Shown here: positions 2,431-31,463 of the stretch, piece by piece | How positions within the stretch are numbered: position 1 is the stretch's first letter | How the letters are laid out: each line of letters begins with the position of its first letter | Virus record (IMG/VR): IMGVR_UViG_3300018719_000006 | Coordinates: 1-45,466 of that record | Source: a virus | Length of the DNA stretch: 45,466 nucleotides | Reading direction: 5' to 3' (one strand) | Made by a program: the position numbers and the translations under genes | Notes under the pieces: model-generated | What the model was told of the DNA's origin: nothing | Seen by the model: only the letters and a program-made list of their open reading frames with translations | Databases searched by the model: none

Positions 2431-2760
2431 CTACTCCCTCCGGTGCTGGATGACCTCCCGAAGAAGGCTGTCCAGCCGGTCGCCGAGCTTTTCGATCGAG
2501 CCCGCTAGCCGCTCCTCCACTTCCCGCAGTACCTCTCGGGACACGAGCCGTTCGGCCTGTGTGACCTGATAGGCGTTCACGGAGGCCTGGAGGATGGCAA
2601 TCTTCTCATGGGCCTTGTCGGCTTTCTCCTCGGCTGCGATGGCTCGCTTCTCTGCCTGGATCGCCTTCTGCTCTGCATTGAGCCAGAACTTGATGACGGC
2701 AAGCGCCGTGCCGCCGATCATGAAGATGGTGGCGAGGTTCACATCCCAACTGAACTGCAT
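2431..2760 (-). CDS. Membrane-anchored coiled-coil protein of the lysis cassette
   Basis: A 109-residue protein with one N-terminal membrane segment (residues about 8-26, ATIFMIGGTALAVIKFW), then a long alanine- and glutamate-rich coiled coil to the end. This topology fits an inner-membrane spanin-like or holin-associated protein. No overlapping second gene with a lipobox is seen, so a two-component spanin cannot be claimed. It is the last gene of the lysis cassette, two bases downstream of the holin-like gene. Confidence 0.6.
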   Translation of the reverse strand: MQFSWDVNLATIFMIGGTALAVIKFWLNAEQKAIQAEKRAIAAEEKADKAHEKIAILQASVNAYQVTQAERLVSREVLREVEERLAGSIEKLGDRLDSLLREVIQHRRE

Positions 2761-2762
2761 GC

Positions 2763-3314
2763 TCAGTGCCCCGCACGGCCAGGAAGGGTCTCAGCAATGG
2801 CCCGCTCGGCAATGGTCCGAACAGCATCCCCCGACCGCTTGGAGCCAGAGGAGCTGCCCAGCCAATAGTTGATGACCTGCATCTGTGCCGCGCCGAGCAC
2901 GCCGAGGAGGATGTTGGCGATCGTGGCCGCCCTTTCATCGAGCGCCAGGGACCCGGCCAGGACCAGATACAGCGCCCCGCCGAACATCACGGTCACGAGG
3001 GTCGAGACGATGGCCGCACCCCAGGCCATGACGGAGCCCTGCTGGGAGAGAGCAAGGGTCTGCTGGCGGGCATCCTGCACGTCCTGTATCTCGAGGCGAA
3101 ACACTTCAAGCTCCGCCCTGACCTGCTCGACGAAAAGCTCTGCAAGCCTCGGGTCGGCGTCGATATGGGCCTGCGCCTTTTTCGGGTCGTCCGTCCCGAA
3201 CACGACCTTGGCGGCGTCTACGACCTTGCCGGCCGCGGTGCCTGCCCGGTTCCCGGCGAACACCCCGACAAGATCAGGGGCATACTGGAGCAGCAGTCCG
3301 ATGATGGGGTGCAT
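2763..3314 (-). CDS. GTA-type 3-TM holin-like protein
   Basis: A 183-residue protein with a hydrophobic N-terminus, a soluble charged stretch (residues about 40-90) and two strong membrane helices: SVMAWGAAIVSTLVTVMFGG and, near residue 140, IANILLGVLGAAQMQVINYW. This resembles the three-TM holin family of gene transfer agents and related alphaproteobacterial phages. Holins form inner-membrane lesions that release the endolysin. Its start overlaps the stop of the endolysin gene (TGATG), so translation is coupled. Confidence 0.7.
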   Translation of the reverse strand: MHPIIGLLLQYAPDLVGVFAGNRAGTAAGKVVDAAKVVFGTDDPKKAQAHIDADPRLAELFVEQVRAELEVFRLEIQDVQDARQQTLALSQQGSVMAWGAAIVSTLVTVMFGGALYLVLAGSLALDERAATIANILLGVLGAAQMQVINYWLGSSSGSKRSGDAVRTIAERAIAETLPGRAGH

Positions 3315-4078
3315 CAGGCTTTCCTTCCGAAGATGGTCTCGAGGAGGTTCTTGAGGGCCGCATAGAAAAACCCGCCTGAAGAGGCGGGCTGAGGAGTGGG
3401 GACCGGCGGGGGCTCGATGTCCGGTGGTGGCGGAATTGGAGCCTCGGCAATGGGGGCCTCTCTCTGAGCCCCCTTCAGGGCCATCAGGAACTTGCGATGG
3501 TATTCGGCAATCTCCGCAGCTCGGTCCAAGCCGTTGATAATGCGGCGGGCGTTATACGGGTCACTGAGTCCCGGCTTGAAATAGTCAGAGAGCCTCTTGC
3601 CGGTGAACCATCCGGCCTTCATGCCAGAATACATGATGACCGCGGCAATCCCCGGCTGCATGGCAAGATCCGGATTGCCTACCAAGTCGAACCCGACCTC
3701 CTTCGACGCGCGGGTATAGTTCGTGCGTCCCGTGAGCTGCACATAGCCGCGACCCGCGAACTTGGCCCCGTCGCCCGGCGTCAGGTTGCCGAGTTCCCGC
3801 GCCTTGGCCGGACGATCGCCCTGGATGTCGTACATGCGCTTGTAATAGGCTGCGCCCCCGAACTCCTTGATCGGCTGCATGGTTCGGGCCGTCTCGTGGT
3901 AAGCCGTGGCGAGACAGTACGCCAGATGCTCCAGCGGCATGTCGGCAGGCGCCGCATCGAGAAGGGCATCCATGCCCTCAACCTGGCTCTGGTTTAGGCG
4001 GCCGCCAAAGAGCGACGAGCGCACAGCCGCGAAGAAGGCGGCGCGATCAAGCGCCCGCCCGAAGTTCTCGGTGGTCAT
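3314..4078 (-). CDS. Glycoside hydrolase family 19 endolysin
   Basis: A 254-residue chitinase-like (GH19) lysozyme that cleaves the peptidoglycan glycan backbone. AYHETARTMQPI carries the probable catalytic glutamate (E62), and GRGYVQLTGRTNY is the family's hallmark substrate-cleft motif. The catalytic domain spans about residues 15-200; a proline-rich linker (PIPPPPDIEPPPVPTPQP) leads to a short amphipathic tail. No signal peptide is present, so release should depend on the adjacent holin. It is the first gene of the lysis cassette and lies downstream of a hairpin that separates it from an antisense acyltransferase gene. Confidence 0.88.
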   Translation of the reverse strand: MTTENFGRALDRAAFFAAVRSSLFGGRLNQSQVEGMDALLDAAPADMPLEHLAYCLATAYHETARTMQPIKEFGGAAYYKRMYDIQGDRPAKARELGNLTPGDGAKFAGRGYVQLTGRTNYTRASKEVGFDLVGNPDLAMQPGIAAVIMYSGMKAGWFTGKRLSDYFKPGLSDPYNARRIINGLDRAAEIAEYHRKFLMALKGAQREAPIAEAPIPPPPDIEPPPVPTPQPASSGGFFYAALKNLLETIFGRKA

Positions 4079-4100
4079 GGTGTCCTCGTGATGGGGATGT

Positions 4101-4123
4101 AAAAAGCCGCGCTGTAGCGGCTT
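4101..4123. terminator. Bidirectional terminator-like hairpin
   Basis: Arms AAGCCGC (4104-4110) and GCGGCTT (4117-4123) enclose a six-base loop. On the minus strand the stem ends in TTTTT; on the plus strand it is followed by GCTTTAGTTTT. It separates the endolysin gene from the plus-strand acyltransferase and could block late minus-strand transcription arriving from the fibre gene, unless that transcription is antiterminated. Confidence 0.55.
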
Positions 4124-4173
4124 GCTTTAGTTTTCTCGGGTTGGCATCTTCCCCGGCGAGGGGGCAGCCAACA

Positions 4174-5253
4174 TTGTACCAATTCTCGCGATATAAAGGG
4201 CGGCACCTGCCGCTAGATTTTCTTCGAGGTGTCGCCGCTCTAGGGATTGTCGTTCACCACTACCTCGCGTGGACAAAAATCGGTGGCGTGCAGAGCCTCG
4301 GCACCTTTGGTGTCTACACTTTCTTTATTCTCTCCGCGCTGACCATGATGATGGTCTACGACCAGGAATTTTCATCCGGCATCAAAGTCGAAAGTCTCAA
4401 GGCCTTCTACCGTAATCGGTTCGCGCGAATTGTACCGTTGCTGACCCTAGTGGCAACGATTTACCTCCTGCTCGCTCCTGGGGGGTCTTGGGACAAGACT
4501 GTCATTCGTTTGGCTCAAGCCGTTCTAACCGGTACCGGCCTGTTCGCCTTCCATCTCCCCGGCTATATCGGAACCGGAGCAGGCGTTTGGTCGCTCGGGA
4601 TTGAGATCCTCTTTTACGCCCTTTTCCCGATGGTGTGTCTCTTGGCTAGGAGCACCACGACCTGGAATTTTGCGATTGCCCTAGTCGTCTCAATCGTTGG
4701 TCAGATGGCCCTCTTCTCGGTTATCGCGCCGATGTACGGGAAGACGCCGGGGACTCATTTTGACTTCTTCAATGCATTCCTGATGCACGCGCCCTTCTTT
4801 GTGATCGGCGTACTGATCTATGCATTGCCCAATGGCAAAATCCGCGGAGCATTCCCTATCGGAGCGGCGATTTTCCTCGGAGCTGTGGCCTCGTCTTTAT
4901 GGATCAAGATCCCCGTGTTCACGAGCCAAGGCTATTTTCTTGCCCTGACAGCAGCGTGCGGGCTTAGCGTGGCCCTGCTTTACAGGTCGGAGCTTCCCCC
5001 GTTCCTAGCAGCTCCGTCCACATTCTTCGGGGAGATCAGCTATTCCCTGTATCTCCTCCATCCCATCGTGTTCAACCTCTGGTCCAAGGCAGGCTTGAAC
5101 CTTACGGGCCCATTGAACGGCACTGCCTTCTTCTTGGTTGCAATAGGGACGGCTTACCTGTCCCATCGCTTTTTCGAGAAACCAGCACGGGACGCCCTGC
5201 GTGATCGCAAAGCGTCCCGTCCCTCCGATGTTCCGGCTAGCTCTCCACTCTGA
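4174..5253 (+). CDS. Acyltransferase 3 family membrane protein (OafA-like)
   Basis: A polytopic membrane acyltransferase with about ten hydrophobic segments. The start LPLDFLRGVAALGIVVHHY carries the family R-G-x-A signature and the HH pair thought to be catalytic; SYSLYLLHP near the end is another typical motif. Such proteins O-acetylate surface sugars, including O-antigen. I prefer the TTG at 4174 (GAGGGGG upstream) to the in-frame TTG at 4141. It runs antisense to the late operon between the fibre and lysis genes, flanked by hairpins, so it is probably a lysogenic-conversion moron altering the surface receptor. The role is inferred from family and context. Confidence 0.82.
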   Translation: MYQFSRYKGRHLPLDFLRGVAALGIVVHHYLAWTKIGGVQSLGTFGVYTFFILSALTMMMVYDQEFSSGIKVESLKAFYRNRFARIVPLLTLVATIYLLLAPGGSWDKTVIRLAQAVLTGTGLFAFHLPGYIGTGAGVWSLGIEILFYALFPMVCLLARSTTTWNFAIALVVSIVGQMALFSVIAPMYGKTPGTHFDFFNAFLMHAPFFVIGVLIYALPNGKIRGAFPIGAAIFLGAVASSLWIKIPVFTSQGYFLALTAACGLSVALLYRSELPPFLAAPSTFFGEISYSLYLLHPIVFNLWSKAGLNLTGPLNGTAFFLVAIGTAYLSHRFFEKPARDALRDRKASRPSDVPASSPL

Positions 5254-5305
5254 GCGCCTCCGGTTCCTCCGAAGCGCGTCCAATGGTCGACCAGCCGGAC
5301 GAAAG

Positions 5306-5331
5306 CGACCGCCGAGAACTTCGGGCGGTCG
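5306..5331 (+). terminator. Hairpin after the acyltransferase gene
   Basis: Arms CGACCGCC (5306-5313) and GGCGGTCG (5324-5331) form a perfect eight-base stem with a ten-base loop. There is no U-tract. A second small hairpin, AATAGC-TAC-GCTATT, follows at 5353-5367. These probably end or stabilise the acyltransferase message before the next tiny gene. Confidence 0.35.
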
Positions 5332-5427
5332 TGGGCCTCGTGATGGAGATAGAATAGCTACGCTATTGCGGCTTGCCCTGTTCCGCTCGCCCGGATAATG
5401 GTCCTAGCACAAAGGTAAGGAGATCCC

Positions 5428-5550
5428 ATGGACGGGGAAGAGGGATACTACGTTGCAGACGACATTCTTCGCGGGTCTGTCGACCCGTTCGCGCCCCAGC
5501 CCGAACCTGAAGAATGGGACGAGCCGGATCGGAACGAAGACGACCAGTGA
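5428..5550 (+). CDS. Tiny acidic protein, 40 residues
   Basis: A 40-residue, strongly acidic protein (about 14 Asp/Glu; ends EPDRNEDDQ). It has a very good ribosome-binding site, AAGGAGAT at 5417-5424, five bases before the ATG, which is the main reason to call it a gene. It contains no membrane or nucleic-acid-binding motif. It lies on the plus strand with the acyltransferase, antisense to the late operon, and ends shortly before the convergent fibre gene. A DNA-mimic or inhibitor role is conceivable for so acidic a protein, but nothing here shows it. Confidence 0.5.
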   Translation: MDGEEGYYVADDILRGSVDPFAPQPEPEEWDEPDRNEDDQ

Positions 5551-5558
5551 CCTCCTTA

Positions 5559-5588
5559 CTGGCGGCACCTGAACCGGATGGCCGCCAG
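5559..5588. terminator. Hairpin between convergent genes
   Basis: CTGGCGGC (5559-5566) and GCCGCCAG (5581-5588) form an eight-base stem with a 14-base loop, exactly between the end of the plus-strand tiny gene and the end of the minus-strand fibre gene. There is no clear U-tract on either side. Confidence 0.3.
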
Positions 5589-5606
5589 AGCAAAAATGGG
5601 AGGGGG

Positions 5607-7943
5607 TTACACCTCCTCCTTCGCCTCAAGAGCGGCTAGTCGCAGCCTCAACTCCCGCACCTCCGCCCACAGGACCGGCACAACCTTACCGGGATCGACA
5701 AGCCACGCCTCGAAGCCCTCATTGCCAGGCCTCTTGTCAGGATCGTCGTCTCCCCTCAGCACAGCCTGCGGCAGATGCTTGGCGAGTTCCTGAGCTGGAA
5801 AGCTGTAGGACCACTCATCCGACGATGTAAGCCAGTTATGGTAGATCGGGACGACCGCGTCGATGATAGCGCCAGAGTTTTCGATCGGCTTGCGGATGGG
5901 CTTGACACGCACGTCAGAGGTGGTGGCGTAAGTCGTAGTTGTCCCACTAACCGAAATGCTACCGACGACACCATTCGTATTCCGGAATGCTGCCACCTGC
6001 CGCAGGTTCGCAGAGAAAACTTCCGTTACCAGCGCCGGGGTCGCTGAATCCAGGCCGACGGTCAGATGACCGCGCTGAGTAGGCTGCGCTACGCCGAACC
6101 CGACTTGCAGCTTGCGGAAGAAACCGAAATCAGCTTCCGGGTTACGCACAAACTGCCGCGCCACAGAGAGCATGTCAGCGCCTGTAGCCAGGAAGTCTCC
6201 GAGCAGGAACAGCTTGCTGTAGGCATGGTTTTCCCAATCTTCGCCCGCGACGAACGTAGCATACCAACGTCCATCGATACGGAACGGATGGAGGTAGCCA
6301 GATGCCCAATTCGGAATGGCCGAGAATGGCGTCCAACCGATCCCAAGCGTCCCGAACCGACCGCCGGCCGTCCACAGTGCATCTGCATCAGCCGATGCAA
6401 GGGTCATATAGCTTTCAAGCCCAGTCGAACTCGGCGAGCTGTAAAGTCCTCGGTCCCTGCGGAAGAACCCGATGAACCAGATCTTGTTGGTAGCCGGGTC
6501 ATAAAGTGCCTGAGGTGGATTACCCTCCAGATGCAGTCCGGTGTCGGCCTGGGCGCTCCACGTCAGCATGCTCGTAGAGGTAAAAACAACAGCATTATCT
6601 TGGCCAGAGACACGGGCATACATCAGCCATTTATTCTGTGTCCCGACGCGGACGACTGCCATCTCGTTAAGACTTGTGGCCGGAGCAACGGGCGCTGCAA
6701 TGCCCGTGCTCCATGTCCACGTGGCCCCATTGTCCGTTGTCCGAACCGCGTCGATGTTACCGGTGGTGCCGCTGTAGGAATAGGCAATAAACCCGTTGGT
6801 GTCGTCCCCCCCGACGCTGGCCGGGTATTGGTTCAGATTGCCGTGGAAGTTGATCCCGAATCCCGCAGAAGGGGCGTTCACGGTGACCGTGTTCCAAGTC
6901 ACTCCCTTGTCGTCGGAGTAGATGAAAATGCCATTTGTATAGGTCAGATTGCCAGCCTGGCGCCTACTGCAGATTATGCCGAGCCGGCCGTTGCCCATGA
7001 CCCCCGCGACGAAGTTGCGAGTGTCATAGTTAGGATCAGTGTAGATCAGCCGATCATTTACCCGCGTAGCCCCTTTATCATACGTGTCAAAGGCGCGGAT
7101 TTCGGAGCCGTTGGTGACGGTGTGGTTGGAAGCCTTGCGATAAACGACGACCCACTTGCCGTTGCCAGCGTCAAGGATGCCGCTGTTGAAGCCATAGTGG
7201 GCATCCTCCAATTCCCCCAACAGAATACGCATGTTGGCGAGGCCGAAGGGCGAGGCATCCTGCGGCAGGAGCGGGATATCGAGATCCATGGCCGCCTTGA
7301 GATCCGCTAGCGTCACATCGCTTGGATCGGCGGTACTTCCGCTCAGGTTGGCCTTGACCGTCCCAGCCGGCATGTCGGCCAGCTTTGCGTTGGTAACGCC
7401 ATTATCGGGGAGAACACCGGAGGAGGCTGCTTCCGCCCATTGTCTGGCCTCATCCGCGCTGTCTGCCGCTGCCGTGGCCGCCCCCTGCGCAGATCCTGCA
7501 GCCGCCTCGGCAGCTTCCCGATCTGCATTTACGCTCAACTCGATCTGCTGCAGCGTGACCATCGCCGCATCGATCGCCTGCCGGTCGGCGTGGATCTCCG
7601 CCGCCACCTGTTCGATGTTGTCAGGAATAGCCTTGAGCCGCGTCAGATATTCGGACACGCGCACCGCGTAGACTCTCGGGTCCGTATGCCTGACCCAGCG
7701 CAGCACGAAGTAAGGAACGTTGGTCAGTGTTGGCCCCGTCCACGGCTTGGCGAGCCTGAGCTGATTGACGGACAGCACCTCCTTGATGACCGTGACGCCG
7801 TTCTGCCCATCGTTGGCGTAGAGCGTGTCGAATGGCAGGACGGCGGTGTCCCAGAACACCATATCGCCGGTTGCGATATCGGACCCGTTGGTGAGCGTGA
7901 TCGTGCCGTCAGAGTAGAAGAAATATGCAGGGTCGAGGGCCAT
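5607..7943 (-). CDS. Tail fibre with sialidase-like propeller and S74 chaperone
   Basis: A 778-residue receptor-binding protein. Residues 1-110 are probably the virion-attachment part. An Ala-rich coiled coil follows (AAEAAAGSAQGAATAAADSA), then a central region with Asp-box-like motifs (SDDKGVTW, TTDNGATW) as in sialidase/BNR beta-propellers. The C-terminus (from about 675) resembles the peptidase S74 intramolecular chaperone: TSDVRVK has the Ser and Lys five residues apart that perform autocleavage after trimer folding, and the end is a leucine-rich helix (ELRLRLAALEAK). It probably binds or trims host surface glycan. Catalytic sialidase residues cannot be assigned, so enzyme activity is uncertain. 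Confidence 0.82.
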   Translation of the reverse strand: MALDPAYFFYSDGTITLTNGSDIATGDMVFWDTAVLPFDTLYANDGQNGVTVIKEVLSVNQLRLAKPWTGPTLTNVPYFVLRWVRHTDPRVYAVRVSEYLTRLKAIPDNIEQVAAEIHADRQAIDAAMVTLQQIELSVNADREAAEAAAGSAQGAATAAADSADEARQWAEAASSGVLPDNGVTNAKLADMPAGTVKANLSGSTADPSDVTLADLKAAMDLDIPLLPQDASPFGLANMRILLGELEDAHYGFNSGILDAGNGKWVVVYRKASNHTVTNGSEIRAFDTYDKGATRVNDRLIYTDPNYDTRNFVAGVMGNGRLGIICSRRQAGNLTYTNGIFIYSDDKGVTWNTVTVNAPSAGFGINFHGNLNQYPASVGGDDTNGFIAYSYSGTTGNIDAVRTTDNGATWTWSTGIAAPVAPATSLNEMAVVRVGTQNKWLMYARVSGQDNAVVFTSTSMLTWSAQADTGLHLEGNPPQALYDPATNKIWFIGFFRRDRGLYSSPSSTGLESYMTLASADADALWTAGGRFGTLGIGWTPFSAIPNWASGYLHPFRIDGRWYATFVAGEDWENHAYSKLFLLGDFLATGADMLSVARQFVRNPEADFGFFRKLQVGFGVAQPTQRGHLTVGLDSATPALVTEVFSANLRQVAAFRNTNGVVGSISVSGTTTTYATTSDVRVKPIRKPIENSGAIIDAVVPIYHNWLTSSDEWSYSFPAQELAKHLPQAVLRGDDDPDKRPGNEGFEAWLVDPGKVVPVLWAEVRELRLRLAALEAKEEV

Positions 7944-8005
7944 GAAAATCCTCCCGGCCAGGAGGTTCCTGGCCGATGGTGGCGGACTTGGATTGTGAGG
8001 AAGAG

Positions 8006-8353
8006 TTAGCGGTTCAGGCTGATGCCGTTCTCAGCGAGGATCTTGCGGATCTTCTCAGCCGTCAGTGCCTTGCGCACTTTTGCTTTAAGGGCCACGCGCT
8101 GCGGCTCGGAGGCCTCGTCGGCTTCCGCGAGCGCAACCACCTGGCGGGCGATCTCGTCGGCCTTCACGCGCCGGATCTGCGCTTCGCGGTTGAGCATATC
8201 GGAATGGTCTCCGGCGAGATGGCGCCGAGCCTCCGCGACCTTTCTGGTGTAAATCGCCATGCGCTGCCGCACCGGCTCAAAATGCTTGTCGATGGCCTGT
8301 TCCGCAAGTGCGCGAACCTGTTCGATATCCGGCCCGATTTCAAGACGCGCCAT
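8006..8353 (-). CDS. Hypothetical helical phage protein
   Basis: A 115-residue, almost entirely helical and charged protein; the C-terminal part is lysine-rich (LKAKVRKALTAEKIRKI). The start at 8353 (MARLEIGPD) is chosen because it follows the upstream stop by one base (TGACATG), consistent with coupling; an open frame extends further upstream but overlaps the previous gene in full. It sits between the fibre and its upstream partner, where fibre-assembly chaperones often lie, but no family is recognised. Confidence 0.6.
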   Translation of the reverse strand: MARLEIGPDIEQVRALAEQAIDKHFEPVRQRMAIYTRKVAEARRHLAGDHSDMLNREAQIRRVKADEIARQVVALAEADEASEPQRVALKAKVRKALTAEKIRKILAENGISLNR

Positions 8354-8354
8354 G

Positions 8355-8771
8355 TCAGGCCTCCGTCGCCGTAACCTGGAGGAAGATCGAGACAGGCTGA
8401 TAGGGGAACGGATCGAAGGAGACCGCGTAATCGCCGGGGATGCGCAGGACGAGTTCAAGGTCGTCGCCATCCGCCTCGATCGATTGCCCGTGTTCGGGGC
8501 CCTGAACATGAACCGTTGTCCCGGCCGGGATGCCGGAAATCACCGTCACCTTGTCGTTGCCTTCCGCCTTCTCGCTGAGCGTGTAATCAAGCCGCGGGCG
8601 GATTGTCGGAACGCCATCCGGGAAATACCACCACTCATGCGAGAACGGCGGGAGGTCGACAGCGCCTAGGTCAGTGTCCAGTCTCACCTTTTCCAAAACA
8701 TCAGGTCGAGCCGGATAACCCTCCTCAAGATGCCCGATATAGCGCCCTTCAGCATCATACTGAACGATCAT
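8355..8771 (-). CDS. Hypothetical tail-region protein
   Basis: A 138-residue protein, beta-rich in appearance, starting MIVQYDAEGRYIG and containing the aromatic stretch HEWWYFPDG. The C-terminal half (SGIPAGTTVHVQGP to the end) looks like a small beta-sandwich. No family is recognised. Its place just upstream of the fibre gene suggests a fibre-connector or accessory baseplate role. No signal or membrane segment is present. Confidence 0.6.
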   Translation of the reverse strand: MIVQYDAEGRYIGHLEEGYPARPDVLEKVRLDTDLGAVDLPPFSHEWWYFPDGVPTIRPRLDYTLSEKAEGNDKVTVISGIPAGTTVHVQGPEHGQSIEADGDDLELVLRIPGDYAVSFDPFPYQPVSIFLQVTATEA

Positions 8772-8792
8772 TGGATTGTCTCCGTTGTGATT

Positions 8793-9323: not shown

Positions 9324-9327
9324 GGCC

Positions 9328-10133: not shown

Positions 10134-10136
10134 AGT

Positions 10137-13475: not shown

Positions 13476-13477
13476 GT

Positions 13478-17078: not shown

Positions 17079-17107
17079 GGGTCTAACTCATGTGCTGCAG
17101 GGGGACT

Positions 17108-17608
17108 ATGATGCGCCGGCTATGCGTAATTTTATTTTGTTCTTTATGCGTGACACAAGTCCAAGCCGAAGCACCGCCACAGAAATTCGGCAGGTGGACA
17201 GTAATAACAAGCAAAGATAAAGTTGATGATACTATTGAAGTAATTGCCATCAACGTCATCTCGACTAGCAAACGTGGTGATCCTGGATCACTGGCTATTG
17301 GTTGCAAAAAGAATAAAACCCACTTCCTAGTGCAGAGCAGCGGCTATTGGGGCAGGGGTAACTTAACTGTTATCTACCGCCTAAACAGCGACAATGCTGT
17401 TAGACTAGTATGGGAGAGCAGTGCTGATGGCGCCTCTGCATTCTACCCATCCGCCACGGTTCCATTTATCAAATCGTTGCCGGATACTGGGAGGCTGTTT
17501 TTTCGCGTCCACGATTTCCGCGGGATTCCCTACGAGGCCGAGTTTCCCCTTGAAGGTGTAGAAGAAGTCAAGAAACGCATCGGTGCTGCATGTTCTTGGA
17601 AAGAATGA
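17108..17608 (+). CDS. Secreted VasI/TagO-like protein (T6SS-associated family)
   Basis: A 166-residue secreted protein. The start at 17108 (AGGGGGA upstream) gives a clear signal peptide, MMRRLCVILFCSLCVTQVQA, with a VQA cleavage site. The mature part follows the VasI/TagO pattern: KFGRWTVITS, a D-D-T-I-E segment, LAIGCKKNKT, VIYRLNSDNA, and PFIKSLPDTGRLFFRV then GIPYEAEFPLEG with a conserved C-terminal Cys-x-Trp. That family is linked with type VI secretion, but phages and chromosomes also carry lone copies. Lower GC and antisense placement between tape measure and chaperone genes mark it as a moron. Function in the envelope is unknown. Confidence 0.72.
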   Translation: MMRRLCVILFCSLCVTQVQAEAPPQKFGRWTVITSKDKVDDTIEVIAINVISTSKRGDPGSLAIGCKKNKTHFLVQSSGYWGRGNLTVIYRLNSDNAVRLVWESSADGASAFYPSATVPFIKSLPDTGRLFFRVHDFRGIPYEAEFPLEGVEEVKKRIGAACSWKE

Positions 17609-17669
17609 ATACTGCGTGGAAGCCAGTCAGCGGAACGCGTCACCTGTCACTAACTACCGAGAGGAAACA

Positions 17670-17942
17670 ATGTCCTTCACCCAAGATCACGGTCGTATCA
17701 CTGCCCTTGAGTGGTTCGTTGAGAAGCTAGTCGTAGAGCATTGTATGAAGCAGGCGAACCCGGCTGTCGCCGTTGCCGAACTCAAGGCGCAAGCCGAAAG
17801 CCATGGCCAGTTGCTGATCGAGATGACAGCTCAGCGTGATGATGACTCTTTGTCAGTGGCCGTAGACATCGCCTCAAGTCTTGGCACGCTCGCAGACGAG
17901 TTTGAGAATGCAGTCCGCATCGCAGTCGAGGAAGGTGGCTAA
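17670..17942 (+). CDS. Hypothetical protein of the same plus-strand island
   Basis: A 90-residue protein starting at the ATG at 17670, preceded by GAGGAAAC; a longer open frame upstream overlaps the preceding gene and lacks this site. It is acidic and helical throughout (ITALEWFVEKLVVEHCMKQA, then VDIASSLGTLADEFENAV) with no recognised domain. It probably shares a transcript with the secreted protein upstream. Confidence 0.6.
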   Translation: MSFTQDHGRITALEWFVEKLVVEHCMKQANPAVAVAELKAQAESHGQLLIEMTAQRDDDSLSVAVDIASSLGTLADEFENAVRIAVEEGG

Positions 17943-17944
17943 AA

Positions 17945-17967: not shown

Positions 17968-17970
17968 ATA

Positions 17971-18722: not shown

Positions 18723-18807
18723 GTTAGGTCTCCTCTAGTTTGCAATGTGGACTCGACTCCCTCATCGAGAAAGGCCAATCTGCTCGTTCCTGGAAAAGGG
18801 GGAAATC

Positions 18808-18918: not shown

Positions 18919-18927
18919 TCGCTACCG

Positions 18928-19431
18928 CTATGGATTAAGCAGCCCATAGGTGATCAAAGAGAAAAGCAGGGTGGCAATCAGGGCCAGCGGCCCGAGTTGC
19001 CGCCCCCTTTTAAGATAACCGGCCGTCTTTTCATTAAGAACCCGGTTGCCTTCGATACCGGCCTTTGCCGCCTTAAAGTACGCATCGATGATATGGCGGT
19101 CTTCTATGCCGTCCTCGAAGGCCCACTGCCAAAACTCAGGGCCGCGACCGATTAAACCGAGGCGTGCCGTCTCCATCGCTTTGAAGCAGTACCATGCTCC
19201 GCCGAGGAAACAGATCGTAGCAGCAACCAACCCCCAGGCGAGTTCAATCCTGATCGGAGACAAGCCAAATAGGCTGCTTGCTGCTCCAGTCGCAGTGGCA
19301 AGCCCTAAAGTAACGTATAGCCGAAGCAGACCCATCGCCTGTTGATCAGTGAACGTGATCAGGTCGGTTAAGGCTTTATAACGGGCGCGAATATCGTCCA
19401 GCGCCAGCTTCAATTTATCGAACTCTGACAT
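18928..19431 (-). CDS. Three-TM membrane protein of unknown function
   Basis: A 167-residue protein; the start at 19431 (MSEFDKLKLALDD) is chosen for the GAGG before it. Residues 1-40 form a soluble helix, followed by membrane helices near 43-63 (LLRLYVTLGLATATGAASSL), 70-92 (IELAWGLVAATICFLGGAWY) and 143-165, with a soluble stretch between the last two. The arrangement is unlike tail genes, and the gene sits on the late strand between tail tube and chaperone genes. A superinfection-exclusion or envelope role is possible, but only by analogy with membrane proteins carried in such places. Confidence 0.6.
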   Translation of the reverse strand: MSEFDKLKLALDDIRARYKALTDLITFTDQQAMGLLRLYVTLGLATATGAASSLFGLSPIRIELAWGLVAATICFLGGAWYCFKAMETARLGLIGRGPEFWQWAFEDGIEDRHIIDAYFKAAKAGIEGNRVLNEKTAGYLKRGRQLGPLALIATLLFSLITYGLLNP

Positions 19432-19465
19432 CGTCAACCTCAACATCAACAGAGTATGCCTTAAC

Positions 19466-19657
19466 CTATTCGTCTCTAGAAGCATCCTTCTTTGCCGTGG
19501 CCTTGGGCCCGGTCTTGCTGGTGTCCTTGGCGAGACCCTTCTCAACCAGGGTGTCGGCATAGGCCTCCGATACTTCGACCACCTCGCCCTTGGTGAATGT
19601 GACCTTCTTGGAGGCCGGGTAGCCGTCGAAATTATCCAAGATCTCTACTGTCCTCAT
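19466..19657 (-). CDS. Small lysine-rich tail-region protein
   Basis: A 63-residue protein starting at 19657, whose ATG overlaps the stop of the tail tube gene by four bases. A short beta-rich front (KKVTFTKGEVVEVSEAYA) and helix (ADTLVEKGLAKD) lead to an Ala/Lys-rich tail (TGPKATAKKDASRDE). The same plan is seen in the 76-residue protein between capsid and connector genes at 22656, suggesting a common small-domain family. Function is unknown. Confidence 0.6.
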   Translation of the reverse strand: MRTVEILDNFDGYPASKKVTFTKGEVVEVSEAYADTLVEKGLAKDTSKTGPKATAKKDASRDE

Positions 19658-20583: not shown

Positions 20584-20612
20584 GGGGTAGGTCTCCTGCA
20601 GTGAAGGGATGG

Positions 20613-21023: not shown

Positions 21024-21024
21024 T

Positions 21025-22652: not shown

Positions 22653-22655
22653 AGT

Positions 22656-22886: not shown

Positions 22887-22949
22887 GATGATCTCCTTTC
22901 GGCTCATAGAGAGGGCAGCCGGAGCCGCCCTCCTTGATGAACCGACCGG

Positions 22950-24374: not shown

Positions 24375-24409
24375 GAGATTGCCCTTTCGAGGCTATGGAG
24401 GTGGATGGA

Positions 24410-25063: not shown

Positions 25064-26291
25064 TGGTGTTCCTCGCAGGTGCAGGGAGCGCGGCTTGGCC
25101 GGCCTGCGTGATCGGCACGTTCTGGCTCTGCATCCGGGGCACATTCCCGCCCTCGACGGGCGGCATGTTCTCCAGTGCGCGGACCTCGTTGATGGTCATC
25201 CAGCCGTTGGTGAGGGCCGATTGATAGAAGGACGCTCGCGCCTTGCTGTCGCCGCGCAGGAGGCCCTCAAGGTTGAATTCGATGGTAATGCCTGCCGAGC
25301 GGTCCGCGGGCGTCAGGAGCTGCTTCTCGAGCGCCTGCTCGATCCTCTTCAGCCGACGGCGCAAGGTGAACTTCTGGAAGCCGAGGGTCTGTTGCTCAAG
25401 GCCCGTTCCCCAACTCGTGGTCTTCTCGGTATGGCCGACCATATGCGGCGGCACACCAAAGAAGCGGCAGATTTCCTCGACCGAGAAGGCGCGACTTTGC
25501 AGCATCTGAGCGTCTTCGGGATTGATCGTCAGTTGGCTCCACGTCATGCCGCCTTCGGCGATGAAGGGGCGCCCTGCATTGATGGTGCCGAGGAATTTCT
25601 CGGCCAACCTTGCATCCAACTCTTCGCGCTGCTTAGGCGTGAGAAAGTCCTTAAGGGAGAGAACCCCAGACGGACGCATGCCATTCTGGAACGTCTTCCC
25701 GGCCGCCCGATCGATGGCCGTGGCCAGCCCGAACGCATGACGCCCGAAGGTGAGCGTCGACATCCCACCAAGAGGATTTCCGCCGAATCCGCGGATATGC
25801 AGGACATCCTTGTCCGTGAGAACATAGGACTTGCGGTCCTGGCTCCAGCGGTACTCGATATCTCCGTTCTCAAGCCGCCGTACGTTGACGATATCGGGCT
25901 GGATCGGCTCCAGTGCGATGATGCGGCCATTCTCGCGGACCTTGCGGGAGTAGGCGTTGCCCCAGAGCTCGACCGATGCCGCCTTGAACTCCCAGTAATC
26001 GACCGCCGTCTGGTCGTAGTTCGGGCTGTCGTGCAGAATCCGGTAGAGCGGATGATCATCTGCCACCTCGCGGGCGCCATCCTCCTTGGTGCGGTAGACC
26101 ATGAGCGGCAGGGACGCGATGGTCCCCGCCAGGAGATTCACGCAGGCCCAAGCAGCCGACAGCCCGAGCACGCTCGATGCCGTGACACCCTCTCCCGCAT
26201 GACTCTCGCTCCCCGGGTCGCGCCAGCCCGCAGGATCAGTCAGCGACAAGCGCTGGACGAAGAACGCTGCCATCTTTTGAAGCAGTTTCAC
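25050..26291 (-). CDS. HK97-family portal protein
   Basis: A 413-residue portal protein, forming the dodecameric ring through which DNA enters the head. SAAWACVNLLAGTIASLPLM near residue 45 and YWEFKAASVELWGNAYSRKV near 105 are hallmark segments; GVPPHMVGHTEKTTSWGTGL marks the conserved C-terminal part. Translation is coupled with the terminase gene by an ATGA overlap. Length is normal for the family. Confidence 0.9.
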   Translation of the reverse strand: MKLLQKMAAFFVQRLSLTDPAGWRDPGSESHAGEGVTASSVLGLSAAWACVNLLAGTIASLPLMVYRTKEDGAREVADDHPLYRILHDSPNYDQTAVDYWEFKAASVELWGNAYSRKVRENGRIIALEPIQPDIVNVRRLENGDIEYRWSQDRKSYVLTDKDVLHIRGFGGNPLGGMSTLTFGRHAFGLATAIDRAAGKTFQNGMRPSGVLSLKDFLTPKQREELDARLAEKFLGTINAGRPFIAEGGMTWSQLTINPEDAQMLQSRAFSVEEICRFFGVPPHMVGHTEKTTSWGTGLEQQTLGFQKFTLRRRLKRIEQALEKQLLTPADRSAGITIEFNLEGLLRGDSKARASFYQSALTNGWMTINEVRALENMPPVEGGNVPRMQSQNVPITQAGQAALPAPARNTNADA

Positions 26292-28129
26292 GCCGGCGCT
26301 CCTAGGCTCGCGATGAAGTCGTTCAATGTCCCGCCCTTCGTCGTCAGTTCAGCGTCCGCCGATCCCGTCGCCATCGCGATCGTCACCAGCCCGTCAATGC
26401 GTCCACGTGAACGCTTCTTGTCGAAGGCCCGGTTCTTCTGCCCGTCGCTGATCAAGGCCGCATTCGCCGCGCACGAGTACGTCACCGGGGAAGCATCGAT
26501 GGTGATGCCGCCGGTCAGGATCCGGTCCTCAAGTCGTTCGATGGAACGCGGCATGCAGAGCTGCTTGTCCTCGAACATGACGCGGGTGCCCTGGGCATGA
26601 CTCACGAGCTTGAGTCCCTGCCCTTCCGGCTTGTCGGGCCCTTCGTATTTCCAGACGTCGAGCCCAACGTCGTCGCAGGCCTTCATGAAGTCCGCCATGC
26701 CGGCAGGATCGAACGCGAGGAACTGCACGTCATGTTCGGCTACGATCTCGGCGACCCGCTGCGCCACGTAGGTCTTGTCGATGACGGCGCCGGGGACGGC
26801 GGTCAGATGCCCTTGCTCAACCCACTGTTCATACGGCGCCTGGTCGGCACGCGCGCGGTCAGCCAGCCCCTGTTGCGTGGTCCAGTACCAAGTCTTAGCC
26901 GCAAGATGGCCATTCTCATCGATCCAGACGGCCGTCAGAGCCGTAAGATCGTTCTTCTGCGACAGGTCCAGCGAGAGCCAGCACTTGCAGCCCTTCAGCG
27001 TGTCCGGAACAACCGTACCTTGAACAGCGGACCAGGCCTCTTCCGCGATCCAGAAGTCGATGGCGCCGATCGGGATCCCGAAATACAGGCGCTTGACCGA
27101 CAAGGCCGTCGAAAGCAGCTGGCGGGCCGTGTTGACCTCGCCGCGGATGTTCTCGATCGGGAACGTCACTCCGAGCGCCGGCAGAGCCTTTGGCCAGGCC
27201 GCCTCGTTGTCGAAGATGTTCTCCCGATCCGCCTTGTCGACGCGAGCGATGAACGCGAAGGCCTCATCGTCCCTGATCTCGCCCCTGGCGACCTTCTGAT
27301 AGAACTCCGAATACTCCGTCCCGACGATCTGAGTCGACGCCGGGGTATTGGTGCCCAGCAGCATGATCGCGTCCCCCGGCATCTTCGCGATCGCGCGGCG
27401 CCAGGTCTCGATCGATATGCCGTGCTTGAACTCGTGGATCTCGTCCGCCAGAACCGCCGTCGGGCGCGGGCCCGAGATGGCCTCACCGTTGGCGAGCGAC
27501 TGAAACTTGCTGTTCGTCTCCGGGTGCTCGATCTTCCAGGCGTTGTCTCCTTCGCCGCGGATGACGACCTCGCCCCGCTCCTCGAGCGTATCGGTCTCGT
27601 CGCCGCCTGGGATCGGAGCCCGGCACATGGCGACCGCGTCCTTGAAGAGCACGTTCGCCGTGGCCCGGTCCTGGCCGATCGAATAGATCTCCGAACGCGG
27701 AATGCCGTAATAGCCCATCAGGTAGATCCCGATCGCGGCCATCAGTGGCGATTTAGCCTGTCCCTTGCCCGTCTCCAGCCAGCCGGCACGGAAACGCATC
27801 CGTCCACTGTCCTTGCGCCAACCGAACAGCGAGCCGATGACGAAGGTGTGCCACGGCAGCGGATGAAACGGCTCCCCGGCCTTCGCGCCGGCAGTCACCG
27901 ACAGCACTGCCGGGAAGAACCCAAGCGCGTGGGCTGCCTTCTCAGGCGACCAGTGGAGCCCGCGGGCCGAGCCGTCCCTCAGATCCTTCAGATGCCGCTC
28001 GGCGGCGTGTCGTACGATCTCCCCTGCAATGATCCGGCCATCGACCACATCGACCGCCCACGCGGTCGTCGGGTCATTTGGATACCGGCTTGAGGTAGGC
28101 GTCTGCTGCCCTTTGGGCTTTCTTGCCAC
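26288..28129 (-). CDS. terL: Terminase large subunit
   Basis: A 613-residue packaging ATPase/nuclease. YPNDPTTAW near the start and WLETGKGQAKSPLMAA (Walker A-like) are typical of Terminase_1 enzymes; TAVLADEIHEF is the Walker B with catalytic Glu. The nuclease domain shows acidic motifs in LSLDLSQKNDLTAL and FLAFDPAGMADF. I choose the GTG at 28129 (AAGG upstream); an in-frame GTG at 28153 is possible. It overlaps the small subunit gene by 56 bases. It cuts and pumps concatemeric DNA through the portal. Confidence 0.9.
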   Translation of the reverse strand: MARKPKGQQTPTSSRYPNDPTTAWAVDVVDGRIIAGEIVRHAAERHLKDLRDGSARGLHWSPEKAAHALGFFPAVLSVTAGAKAGEPFHPLPWHTFVIGSLFGWRKDSGRMRFRAGWLETGKGQAKSPLMAAIGIYLMGYYGIPRSEIYSIGQDRATANVLFKDAVAMCRAPIPGGDETDTLEERGEVVIRGEGDNAWKIEHPETNSKFQSLANGEAISGPRPTAVLADEIHEFKHGISIETWRRAIAKMPGDAIMLLGTNTPASTQIVGTEYSEFYQKVARGEIRDDEAFAFIARVDKADRENIFDNEAAWPKALPALGVTFPIENIRGEVNTARQLLSTALSVKRLYFGIPIGAIDFWIAEEAWSAVQGTVVPDTLKGCKCWLSLDLSQKNDLTALTAVWIDENGHLAAKTWYWTTQQGLADRARADQAPYEQWVEQGHLTAVPGAVIDKTYVAQRVAEIVAEHDVQFLAFDPAGMADFMKACDDVGLDVWKYEGPDKPEGQGLKLVSHAQGTRVMFEDKQLCMPRSIERLEDRILTGGITIDASPVTYSCAANAALISDGQKNRAFDKKRSRGRIDGLVTIAMATGSADAELTTKGGTLNDFIASLGAPA

Positions 28130-28505
28130 GCTGCACCTTCGCCGCCTTGCCACGTCGAACAGGTGGAATGCCGAGTTCCACTTCCAGGACCCGGATCTCC
28201 TCGCCCGCCTGGCGCATAATGCCCCAGTACGGATTCACCTGCGGGACCTTGGTCCGCTTCGCCTTCATGATCGTGCCGTGCTCGGCGACTTCCCGGGCTG
28301 CCCGAATGAACTGCACCCGGTATATCACCAGACGCTCGATCATGTGGCCGTTTTCGATCGCGAGCGTCTGCATCTCCTGCAGGCTGCGGATCACAAGCCC
28401 CCACTCGTCATGAGCGAGGGCGATATCAAGTTCATCTGAGAAGAGCTGCGACCAATCCGGTTCGGCCGGAACACCATCGCCGCCTGTTAATATCTGCAAC
28501 GTCAC
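28074..28505 (-). CDS. terS: Terminase small subunit (P27 family)
   Basis: A 143-residue protein fitting the P27/Terminase_4 family: a helical DNA-recognition core (IERLVIYRVQFIRAAREVAE), the segment KVPQVNPYWGIMRQAGEEIR typical of the family, and a basic tail. It recognises the packaging site and regulates the large subunit. The start is a GTG with a weak ribosome-binding site, only 32 bases from the divergent GIY-YIG gene. That leaves little room for a dedicated late promoter here, so expression probably comes from farther upstream. Confidence 0.82.
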   Translation of the reverse strand: MTLQILTGGDGVPAEPDWSQLFSDELDIALAHDEWGLVIRSLQEMQTLAIENGHMIERLVIYRVQFIRAAREVAEHGTIMKAKRTKVPQVNPYWGIMRQAGEEIRVLEVELGIPPVRRGKAAKVQRGKKAQRAADAYLKPVSK

Positions 28506-28537
28506 GCTAGCTTTGTCGGTAATTGAGAGGAACAGCC

Positions 28538-28957
28538 ATGGAAAATGACGAGATCCGAAAACTCCCTGCAGACTGGTACCAGCACGAGATTAGAGAGGGG
28601 GTTCGTCTCGACCTGCCCGGCATCTATGAGTGGATCGTCGAGGGATCCGGCCGCTATATTGGCAAGTACACTCATCAGTCACGACCCTTCCGGGAGTACG
28701 AGAGAAATGTTCTCCGGATCCTTCGCGGGCATGCTTATCGACCAAGGAAGCCTGACGGCTTCCGGAGGATTCACAGGTCCCTCGCTCAAGCAGTCTTAGA
28801 TGGCCGGCGGATCACCCTCGTTATACTCGAGAACTGCAGCTTGGATCGTCTTCACGCTCGAGAAGCCGAACTCATCGCTGAGCGTGGCACCTTAAACGGG
28901 CGTGACAAAGGTTGCACCCTCATCCCCGAAGGGGATGGCCGAAACCCCCCTTCCTAA
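28538..28957 (+). CDS. GIY-YIG nuclease-like protein
   Basis: A 139-residue protein starting at 28538 (GAGAGG upstream). LPGIYEWIVEGSGRYIGKYT contains both GIY (28-30) and YIG (40-42); RPFREYERNV supplies the usual arginine and AREAELIAERGTLNGRDKG the metal-binding Glu and closing Asn. This matches a minimal GIY-YIG fold with no attached DNA-binding domain. Such proteins act as homing endonucleases, restriction or anti-phage nucleases, or repair enzymes. It is antisense to the late operon and next to the terminase, so it may be a moron or a selfish nuclease. Confidence 0.72.
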   Translation: MENDEIRKLPADWYQHEIREGVRLDLPGIYEWIVEGSGRYIGKYTHQSRPFREYERNVLRILRGHAYRPRKPDGFRRIHRSLAQAVLDGRRITLVILENCSLDRLHAREAELIAERGTLNGRDKGCTLIPEGDGRNPPS

Positions 28958-29069
28958 ATTTCATCGCAGTGTAAACGGAGGACCCCGGTCGGTCTCGCTC
29001 CTAAATGGCCTAGACTTTTGATCCTCCCCCCGGCCATGGTGCTCAGACCTACGGACATGGGGGCATAGA

Positions 29070-29603
29070 TTGGACTGGACACGTGCGGACATCATTTCTG
29101 CCTTGGCTCTTACCGTGTCAGCCATCAGTGGCTGGATCTCTTGGAAGGCCTACCGACGGACAGCTGCGGCACAGCACCCACACTTCAGCTTTGACTTTGA
29201 GGCGTTCGACAAACCCGAGTGGTGGCAACTAGAGTGCTTTATCGATAATCGTTCGCTCGTGGGACTGAAACCGATCGAGGTACGCACGTCTAGGTTCAGA
29301 GCACCAATCTTGTCACTGTATAAGGGCGCGTACGTTGGCGGCGAGATCTGGCAAGTGAGCGACGATATCGAGAATGCTCCACTCACTAAATCTCTTGCAC
29401 TCGGTGAGTTAGCTTACCCGATCGACCCTCAATCTCAGGGACGGTTTAGCGTACTCTTGAAAGCACGACCTGGCAGACGGCGTCTCGTGGTGCGGTGTAA
29501 GACAATCGAAGCGAAGCCTCGGCTGAAACGATTTGTTCTGCACCTGACAATCCCAGAGAGCCCAGAGATACAATGGATCGAAGCCCCCAGCCCAAACACC
29601 TAG
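29070..29603 (+). CDS. Membrane-anchored protein of unknown function
   Basis: A 177-residue protein starting at TTG (GGGGG upstream). Residues about 7-25 form one membrane helix (IISALALTVSAISGWISWKA), with a basic stretch YRRTAAAQ after it. The rest is a soluble beta-rich domain (GRFSVLLKARPGRRRLVVRC, RFVLHLTIPESPEIQW). Similar single-span layouts occur in many uncharacterised proteins. It is antisense to the late strand, in the same island as the GIY-YIG gene, and its stop shares a CTAG with the stop of the convergent HNH gene. Confidence 0.6.
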   Translation: MDWTRADIISALALTVSAISGWISWKAYRRTAAAQHPHFSFDFEAFDKPEWWQLECFIDNRSLVGLKPIEVRTSRFRAPILSLYKGAYVGGEIWQVSDDIENAPLTKSLALGELAYPIDPQSQGRFSVLLKARPGRRRLVVRCKTIEAKPRLKRFVLHLTIPESPEIQWIEAPSPNT

Positions 29604-29971
29604 TTCCTGCGGTTCCAGGGGTGGCTAGGATCAGTCGGCCTCCCTGTCACATCCACACCCACGCATGAGAGACCGCGCTTCTCTTCCCTTTGGATCGCGC
29701 TGTCGTGACAGGGCTTACAGACGCTTTCATGATTGCGGGGATCGATGAATAGCGCCCAGTCACCGCGATGAGGGCGGCGATGGTTCACCACCGTCATGGG
29801 CACATGCTCACCTCGCTTGAGATGCCGCTCGCACCAAGGTTGGCGTTCCTTCTGTGCCTTCCTAGCTGCCTTCCACTCAGGGGTGTTGTACCAAGCTCTC
29901 CACGGCTTCTCTGCCCTGCGCTTAGCGTCGTGCTCTCGATTCCGAGTGCGCTGGTCTATAGGCTTGCCCAT
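29600..29971 (-). CDS. HNH endonuclease
   Basis: A 123-residue HNH nuclease of the kind found beside terminase genes. RAWYNTPEWKAARKAQKERQ precedes Cys47; VVNHRRPHRGD stands where VDHIxP normally occurs and provides the first His; DPRNHESVCKPCHDSAIQRE holds the Asn/His and the CxxC zinc ligands. In cos phages such HNH proteins help terminase cut DNA. The start at 29971 has a weak site; a TTG six bases upstream (GAGAGGAAA) may be used instead. It is separated from terS by two plus-strand genes. Confidence 0.8.
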   Translation of the reverse strand: MGKPIDQRTRNREHDAKRRAEKPWRAWYNTPEWKAARKAQKERQPWCERHLKRGEHVPMTVVNHRRPHRGDWALFIDPRNHESVCKPCHDSAIQREEKRGLSCVGVDVTGRPTDPSHPWNRRN

Positions 29972-30017
29972 CGCTTGCAATAATGATTTCCTCTCGTCTC
30001 TTTGACTGGAGACAGAG

Positions 30018-30380
30018 ATGCGATTCAGCCCGAATATCGAACTTGAAAGAAACTCAGACCGCACATCTGACCTACGATGCCCACGGTGCGGCGGCATACA
30101 TCTGCATCAAACGAAGGTATCTATTTTCAACCGGCAGGAAGATGAAGAAACCGTCTTTTTAGTCACCGTGAACGGGAAAAATACGTCTACGGGCTTTGTG
30201 TCCAATGATGAGAGCGGCAATCCAAGCTCGCGCCGCCAAGGCCTCGCGATCGAATTCGATTGTGAGGGGTGCAGCACGGGTGATCCAGATGATGTTCTTG
30301 AGCTTACAATAGCCCAACATAAGGGCTCGACTGAGATGGGCTGGCGCTTTACGCCTCGGAAATCCGGCGGTCCCCGCTGA
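30018..30380 (+). CDS. Zinc-ribbon-like hypothetical protein
   Basis: A 120-residue protein with two cysteine pairs: LRCPRCGGIHLHQ near residue 20 and FDCEGCSTG near residue 81, separated by beta strands. This fits a zinc ribbon with a beta-sheet insert (VFLVTVNGKNTSTGFV) and a QHKGSTEMGWRF closing segment. Zinc ribbons of this type often bind nucleic acid, but nothing more can be said. GGAGAC upstream supports the start. It is a plus-strand gene next to the HNH gene. Confidence 0.6.
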   Translation: MRFSPNIELERNSDRTSDLRCPRCGGIHLHQTKVSIFNRQEDEETVFLVTVNGKNTSTGFVSNDESGNPSSRRQGLAIEFDCEGCSTGDPDDVLELTIAQHKGSTEMGWRFTPRKSGGPR

Positions 30381-30395
30381 TTGAGAATCAGCTTA

Positions 30396-30430
30396 CAAAA
30401 ACGGCTCCTAACAGATACCTGTCGGAGCCG
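30396..30430 (-). terminator. Terminator downstream of the NusG-like gene
   Basis: CGGCTCC (30402-30408) and GGAGCCG (30424-30430) form the stem; the loop contains its own ACAG...CTGT pairing. Read on the minus strand the stem is followed by TTTTT (30401-30397). It would end the transcript of the antiterminator-like gene before the late genes. A smaller hairpin GCTGATT-GAG-AATCAGC (30376-30392) follows. Confidence 0.65.
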
Positions 30431-30445
30431 ATCCACCATTGCTAA

Positions 30446-30476
30446 AGCGGGACAGGGTGAAAATCACCTGCCCGCT
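30446..30476 (-). other. Bulged long hairpin after the NusG-like gene
   Basis: AGCGGG-ACAGG-GTGA pairs with TCAC-CTG-CCCGCT around an AAA loop, a stem of about 13 pairs with single bulges. It lies 13 bases past the stop codon of the NusG-like gene and just before a terminator. It may be a terminator half, an RNA stabiliser or a loading signal; the role is unknown. Confidence 0.4.
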
Positions 30477-30488
30477 GTGGATTCTCAT

Positions 30489-31016
30489 TTAACCCACTGC
30501 CCTAATTTTGGCAAGTGGCACCGTCGCCTTCGTCTTCCTTCCAAACAAATTCAGGATGACATGGATTCGTTCCTCGGAAGCAGTCGCCATGATTTCGGCG
30601 GCCAAGTCGAACGCACCGTCGCTGACGATGACGCGATCTCCCGGCTTGAACTTCACGCTGCTTCTGGGCTTCGGCTTAGTCTCATCGAATGCGCCGTTGC
30701 GCTCGGCCTCGTCGAGCTGCTCCAGGATCCTCGCCGGTATCTCGGCGGGCTTCCCTGCATTCGATACTAGCCAGTCCACTCCGAACGATTTGCGGACCTC
30801 GCCAAAGGGGCCCTCGGGATGATCCAGGCCCACGAACAGGTACCGGACAAAGAGCGGCCGGGAAACGATCTGCTTCGTCCTGGCGTGCTTGATTTCCTTC
30901 GTCACCATCGGGAGGTAAACGCCAAAGCCTTTCCGGGCCAATGTATCGGCGGTCAGGCGTTCAGCTTGATGCTTGGTATGAACTGCAAACCAGTGGCGGC
31001 CTTCAAAGGCTGACAT
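30489..31016 (-). CDS. NusG/RfaH-like transcription antitermination protein
   Basis: A 175-residue NusG paralogue. It starts at 31016 (GGAGA upstream). Residues 7-110 form the NGN domain that binds RNA polymerase (HWFAVHTKHQAERLTADTLA, and SRPLFVRYLFVGLD in place of the usual PLFPGYVFV). A KOW domain follows near 125-175 (FKPGDRVIVSDGAFDLAAEI). Such paralogues suppress termination and pausing in chosen operons. Its place at the upstream end of the late strand, before a terminator and operon-interrupting antisense genes, suggests control of phage late expression. That job is inferred. Confidence 0.85.
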   Translation of the reverse strand: MSAFEGRHWFAVHTKHQAERLTADTLARKGFGVYLPMVTKEIKHARTKQIVSRPLFVRYLFVGLDHPEGPFGEVRKSFGVDWLVSNAGKPAEIPARILEQLDEAERNGAFDETKPKPRSSVKFKPGDRVIVSDGAFDLAAEIMATASEERIHVILNLFGRKTKATVPLAKIRAVG

Positions 31017-31402: not shown

Positions 31403-31463
31403 AAAAACGATTACGCTAGCATTTTGTGCTTGCATAATATATCACACCTGATACATTGCTTGC

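Follow-up and report, generated by a model that had tools for sequence, protein, structure and literature searches.

The locus described here raises the question of why a gene for a NusG-like transcription factor should stand at the head of the late operon of a phage. The window (the whole stretch of DNA analysed) is one virus record of 45,466 bp, IMGVR_UViG_3300018719_000006, and the phage that it represents is a temperate HK97-type siphophage. In the window gene order, the NusG-like gene (30489-31016) is the final minus-strand gene ahead of the packaging module; it lies between the early region and the terminase genes, on the late strand. In lambdoid phages the same position, just before the packaging and late genes, is occupied by Q: it is the final early gene of lambda and immediately precedes the late genes, from which a terminator separates it. 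The window gene shares this position and logic with lambda Q, although the proteins are unrelated. The reading that we favour, with a probability of about two in three, is that the gene product is a specialised NusG paralogue, borne by the phage, which would act as late-gene antiterminator and thus as a functional stand-in for lambda Q.

An earlier note on this DNA, made from the sequence alone, had recognised the gene as NusG/RfaH-like, and this assignment was borne out by sequence profiles, solved structures and modelling. The protein matches the Pfam family NusG (PF02357, 2.4e-14), and the only two PHROG families retrieved are both annotated as ‘transcription antiterminator’, which is consistent with NusG. 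One of them is phrog_6386 (1.2e-20), whose annotation is a family name without a genomic role or a recruitment element. No homology to Q was detected in the protein, and Pfam returned NusG only. When solved structures were searched by sequence (phmmer against the PDB), RfaH was the best match (1.5e-11) and NusG came next (about 1e-5). An AlphaFold2 model built from an alignment of 47 viral proteins has a mean predicted local distance difference test (pLDDT) of 91.8 and shows, over the full length of the protein, the NusG/Spt5 order of an NGN domain followed by a KOW domain, the latter a five-strand beta-barrel; a Foldseek search with this model returned NusG and RfaH in transcription complexes. 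The ratio of nonsynonymous to synonymous substitution rates (dN/dS) between the gene and its 91%-identical homologue in a close relative, L002, is 0.068, and the gene is therefore under purifying selection.

The residues that matter in RfaH are kept only in part. With regard to binding of RNA polymerase, Tyr54 and Phe56 (RfaH numbering) are kept. Among the residues that read the ops element (K10, H20, R23, Q24 and R73), the window protein retains K10 and R23 and carries T, K and F at positions 20, 24 and 73, respectively. The residues involved in RfaH autoinhibition are all replaced (E48 by R, I93 by L and F130 by I), and the C-terminal domain is predicted to be beta, not the alpha-helical domain of RfaH. 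Judged by its sequence and by the model, the protein is a specialised NusG paralogue and not an RfaH.

The position of the gene was also compared between phages. Viral contigs scanned with a profile for NusG-like genes yielded 80 loci. Within the available flanks, a search for homologues of the terminase large subunit (TerL) that covered either direction and either strand found them at 52 loci, always downstream and on the same strand. Once near-copies had been removed, 41/41 loci had the NusG-like gene upstream of TerL and on its strand, at a median distance of 1.2 kb, the count covering non-redundant viral loci with TerL inside the available flanks. When whole records were searched, 30 of 33 had TerL 0.3-8.3 kb downstream on the strand of the NusG-like gene; in the three exceptions it lay at 23 kb, on the other strand or at the other end of the record. 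A search starting from the window TerL detected a NusG-like gene upstream in 27 of 80 relatives, on the same strand in all 27. Named phages with the arrangement are Bradyrhizobium phage ppBjS10J-1 and Synechococcus phage MinM1, and Microcystis phage yong2 and Labrenzia phage vB_LagS-V1 show it across the origin of the record. A profile search of genome contigs for NusG-like loci found only two, both distant and from Acidobacteriota, and a megablast search for near phages was unproductive.

Proximity to the packaging module admits another explanation, namely that the gene is accessory cargo, placed by chance at a recombination hot spot, and that the late genes are controlled by other means. The neighbourhood is indeed mosaic. 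Segment 30478-29850, which spans the terminator behind the gene, the beginning of the HNH gene and the plus-strand open reading frame (ORF) 30018-30380, shares >99% identity with L002, while its flanks are about 84-87% identical, the NusG-like gene itself about 84%; such identity amid diverged flanks indicates that the segment was recently exchanged. Moreover, among the relatives of the window TerL with at least 4 kb of upstream sequence, a NusG-like gene is present in 24/56 and undetectable in the other 32. Cargo would not, however, be expected to keep an invariant strand and order (41/41 and 27/27), to show a dN/dS of about 0.07 or to come with the linked ops elements described below, and we regard this explanation as quite improbable.

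If the protein is an antiterminator, the leader behind its gene deserves attention. This 94-nt leader folds much better than shuffled sequences (z -5.6). It contains a hairpin directly behind the gene, whose 3' arm ends at the GC of the word GCTTTAGC, as in most ops-bearing loci, and an intrinsic terminator that starts 58 nt past the stop codon. The earlier note had described late-strand hairpins with U-tracts at 30396-30430 and 4101-4123, and folding confirmed both, at 30430-30397 and 4122-4101; the former had, however, been taken for an interruption of the late operon and is instead the first terminator behind the NusG-like gene. A simple pattern scanner missed it, presumably because its stem is bulged. 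In pattern scans, the counts of terminator-like sites showed no clear excess over shuffled sequence, and therefore only individual sites in their context are meaningful. ORF 30107-30439 (minus strand, 110 amino acids) was considered as a gene between nusG and the HNH gene and was discarded as probably not one, since it starts across the terminator.

The terminator would cleanly end the nusG transcript, and this suits a separate transcription unit. Under such a scheme the protein would regulate its own short operon or the host, as a NusG decoy or an anti-Rho factor that protects phage RNA, and a late promoter would lie downstream of the terminator. RfaH, unlike NusG, strongly inhibits Rho (PMC5449661), and this speaks in favour of an anti-Rho role. 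A host-directed factor offers, however, no obvious reason for a position upstream of the terminase in 41/41 loci, nor for a loading element behind its own gene. We consider this scheme unlikely.

Evidence for such a loading element came from an unbiased scan of the 8-mers in the first 150 nt after the stop codon, made at 66 non-redundant loci. The top word was GCGGTAGC, present in 9/66 loci with 0.19 expected (p 7e-13; ~5e-8 after 65,536 tests), and it stands alone among all 256 GC-NNNN-GC words. The finding was replicated in 31 fresh loci whose proteins are unlike those of the first set (6/31, 0.13 expected, p 4e-9). Altogether, GCGGTAGC is found behind the gene in 15 of 97 related phage loci. 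The word contains GCGGTAG, the core of the RfaH ops element. Crystallised ops9, GCGGTAGTC, has a C3:G8 pair, a GGTA loop and a flipped T6, which is read by an RfaH pocket that includes R23, Q24 and R73 (PMC5995543). At 12 of the 15 loci, the first bases of the motif contain the end of a hairpin with an energy of -14 kcal/mol or lower, and the median hairpin energy is -17.9 kcal/mol versus -9.4 at background GCGGTAGC sites. Two loci (L009 and L027) have a terminator ~60 nt beyond the word. All 15 proteins encoded at these loci carry Gln24, compared with 17/82 of the others (Fisher p 4e-9), and all 15 carry T72 (37/82 in the others). A role of GCGGTAGC as a packaging-site feature was rejected: in relatives of the window TerL the word occurs at background level upstream of TerL, and it adjoins nusG also at loci with a distant TerL or with none detected. 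It therefore belongs to nusG and not to packaging. Near-miss words are also present behind two genes that encode Gln24, GCGGAAGC at L029 (+8) and GCGGCAGC at L152 (+9); in both, the base at the ops T6 position would differ.

The window itself belongs to a different branch, as its protein sits in a supported clade of 21 proteins, none of them from a GCGGTAGC locus. Its layout is nonetheless like that of the ops loci: the gene is followed by a hairpin, a GC-NNTA-GC word at the 3' end of the hairpin and, 47 nt on, the U-tract of the terminator. L021 and L023 have the same layout with GCGTTAGC, and their terminators lie 43-69 nt further. We propose GCTTTAGC together with the hairpin as a candidate for the window's own loading site. 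The shared recruitment motif whose existence the earlier note had envisaged is thus present in a related subclass; in the window it is represented at most by a variant.

Several observations weigh against late antitermination or against its extension to the window. No GCGGTAGC is found within 150 nt behind the window gene, and the window protein has K, S and F at the positions of RfaH Q24, T72 and R73. Non-GGTA GCNNTAGC words are barely enriched (5 loci, 1.8 expected, p 0.04), and because this enrichment is marginal GCTTTAGC is treated as a candidate. The association between Gln24 and GCGGTAGC may owe much to relatedness, as strict independent contrasts leave just 2 pairs on supported branches. 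A terminator lies within 300 nt behind the gene in just 16/65 loci (33/364 in random windows), and its presence as a universal part of the system was rejected for this reason. Finally, the window terminator is identical in L002, but it lies within the recently exchanged segment, and its conservation is therefore uninformative.

With these reservations, antitermination of the late genes is the most economical reading. Early minus-strand transcription would produce the NusG-like protein and would mostly stop at the terminator behind its gene. Once sufficient protein is available, it would load on RNA polymerase during a pause in the short leader that separates the stop codon from the terminator, the candidate site being the hairpin plus GCTTTAGC. 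By staying on the polymerase, the protein would suppress this terminator and later ones such as that at 4122-4101, and the resulting read-through would permit expression of the HNH, TerS, TerL, head, tail and lysis genes. Antitermination by the protein, the use of the window leader as loading site and persistence across the operon are all inferred. A phage-encoded NusG paralogue at the head of the late genes that lets polymerase read through had already been suggested in the earlier note; comparison supports a placement suited to read-through from the early region into the late genes, by the 41/41 gene order, the ops cores in two independent sets of loci and the terminators in several lineages.

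The purpose that the earlier note had assigned to the paralogue was another one, namely to take polymerase through the antisense islands and terminators found along 28 kb. As had been stated, the late genes do lie on the minus strand; they extend from TerS (28505) down to the lysis genes (2431). Plus-strand ORFs and late-strand hairpins do occur within the operon. Of the four islands, however, protein homology backs the ORFs 4141-5253 and 17090-17608, while 28538-29603 and 30018-30380 are only open frames. In L002, the nearest relative that keeps the gene, the ORF 28538-28957 is absent and a minus-strand ORF is found in place of 29070-29603. The phrog_1848 ORF 17090-17608 has no match in the records of 20 relatives, an empty search of this kind being weak evidence. 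A guess that ORF 28538-28957 encodes a GIY-YIG nuclease found no support in Pfam. As correctly noted, 32 bases separate the TerS GTG (28505) from the first plus-strand ATG (28538); this gap is due to an insert of ~0.4 kb which L002 lacks. Judging from these comparisons, the islands look like ordinary variable insertions and not like part of a design, and as they are absent or replaced in relatives they were rejected as part of the mechanism. Since the counts of terminator-like sites do not clearly exceed those of shuffled sequence either, and what is conserved is not the islands but the placement of nusG ahead of the terminase, we find island crossing very improbable as the reason why the paralogue exists.

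Known systems provide partial precedents, by analogy, for the arrangement proposed: LoaP for the leader layout, RfaH for the DNA element and lambda Q for the position. Like RfaH of Escherichia coli, the window protein is a NusG paralogue with NGN and KOW domains, and RfaH is its best sequence match among solved structures; related phages share with RfaH/ops the GCGGTAG core and the reading residue Gln24. Unlike RfaH, the window gene sits beside its own proposed target, its product lacks Q24, T72, R73 and E48 and has a predicted beta-barrel KOW domain, and no GCGGTAGC follows the gene. Adjacency of the paralogue gene to its target is found in LoaP (Bacillus velezensis), UpxY and TaA, whose targets are, however, polyketide or capsule genes and not phage late genes. 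The succession of hairpin, pause and intrinsic terminator in the LoaP leader is a tested precedent (PMC12691694), and the window leader likewise has an RNA hairpin followed by an intrinsic terminator. It differs from the LoaP class in that the hairpin loop is not UNCG, and the nearest sequence among solved structures is RfaH. Genes similar to rfaH on prophages and plasmids have been noted in PMC7593976, where the passages on them describe no position, late-gene role or cis element; the same paper states that how NusG paralogues encoded inside the operons they regulate are recruited is unknown. Our search of open-access full text, a 2026 preprint and a 2022 survey included, turned up no description of late regulation by phage NusG paralogues and none of ops elements in phages, which is not proof of novelty.

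The occurrence of the arrangement in dozens of unrelated phages, some of them with ops, suggests a widespread and largely undescribed late-gene switch. A more specific generalisation, on which our opinion is evenly divided, is that paralogues of the NusG/RfaH type form a class of late antiterminators, equivalent to Q, that is widespread among phages and has so far gone undescribed. Their loading site would be a composite element just behind their own gene, made of an RNA hairpin and, fused to it, an ops-like hairpin of nontemplate DNA (GC-GGTA-GC, with lineage variants such as GCTTTAGC and GCGTTAGC); they would open the late operon once the protein accumulates. For the many phages beyond the well-studied models, this would be one common answer to how late genes are turned on; it would also mean that phages have captured a universal elongation factor for a Q-like role. 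For the question on recruitment raised in PMC7593976, it would offer an answer. The element behind the gene and Gln24 are direct and simple points to test, and cultured phages with the arrangement exist, as are the Bradyrhizobium and Labrenzia phages named above.

Table 1. Features of the window, listed from the integrase end towards the end of the late operon.
Feature	Position	Strand	Evidence or remark
Integrase	44066-45301		
CI-like repressor	40662-41324	plus	
Cro-like gene		minus	divergent from CI-like repressor
Recombination/replication genes (resolvase, Sak4, Cas4 exonuclease, helicase, primase)		minus	
HicA/HicB toxin-antitoxin pair	31464-32068	plus	between primase and NusG-like gene
NusG-like gene: phage NusG paralogue, 175 amino acids, NGN + KOW; proposed late-gene antiterminator	30489-31016	minus	Pfam, PHROGs, PDB phmmer, AlphaFold2/Foldseek, dN/dS
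RNA hairpin directly behind the NusG-like gene; candidate loading/pause hairpin	30476-30446	minus	-18.7 kcal/mol, z -4.9
GCTTTAGC, candidate ops-like element (tentative)	30448-30441	minus	GC-NNTA-GC geometry; placement and hairpin context
Intrinsic terminator between NusG-like gene and late genes	30430-30397	minus	-18.1 kcal/mol hairpin, then TTTTTG
Island 1: antisense ORF	30018-30380	plus	no family match; in segment >99% identical to L002
HNH endonuclease of packaging module	29600-30097	minus	phrog_2323, 1.4e-23
Island 2: antisense ORFs 28538-28957 and 29070-29603	28538-29603	plus	no family match
Terminase small subunit TerS, GTG start	28074-28505	minus	phrog_83, 1.1e-12
Terminase large subunit TerL	26288-28153	minus	phrog_9, 1.6e-105; PF20441, 3.5e-28
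Remaining late operon (portal, protease, capsid, connectors, tail, tail fibre, lysis)	2431-26291	minus	PHROGs matches
Island 3: antisense ORFs, the first at 17090-17608	17090-17942	plus	first ORF phrog_1848, 2e-27
Island 4: antisense acyltransferase	4141-5253	plus	PF01757, 5e-26; phrog_3333, 6e-40
Terminator-like hairpin within late region, before endolysin gene	4122-4101	minus	7-bp stem, -10 to -11.6 kcal/mol, TTTTTA

Additional elements were detected in the window and in other lineages. An exact GCGGTAGC is present on the late strand at 18928-18921, overlapping the stop codon of ORF 18928-19560, with a terminator-like hairpin ~45 nt beyond. It was rejected as a second loading site because no strong hairpin abuts it (-6.4 kcal/mol); nor does it exceed chance, as the background rate predicts about one such word per window-sized DNA. 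The word TCACCC was likewise rejected as a shared element of the window clade: its enrichment comes mainly from related loci, and the window copy does not align in structure. L021, L023, L024 and L025 have a long hairpin directly behind nusG, with paired changes in the stem, followed by GCGTTAGC and a terminator. The Bradyrhizobium-phage lineage (L005, L087-L090 and L018) carries a conserved non-coding block, GCAAATCA...CGGCCGGT...TTTCACCCGCCGGG-GGCTTGTG, about 190-260 nt past the nusG stop codon, which is probably a cis element of its own.

Upstream of nusG, a cluster of TGTGACA/TGTCACA repeats is found at 31040-31420, where L002 has GGTGACA/TGTCACC. The repeats are possibly the iterons of a replication origin near the primase-helicase gene, or else sites for a regulator. 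When primase divergence between the window and L002 was examined as a partner of the iteron change, the primases were found to differ little except at both ends. The acyltransferase of island 4 is probably an O-antigen-modifying moron. A strong minus-strand terminator (2349-2324) immediately follows the last late gene, and would be the natural end of the late transcript if it is resistant to the antiterminator. Just upstream of TerS, a block of ~93 bp (29010-28917) is strongly conserved between the window and L002, surrounded by DNA that is diverged or inserted, and it is likely the cos region.

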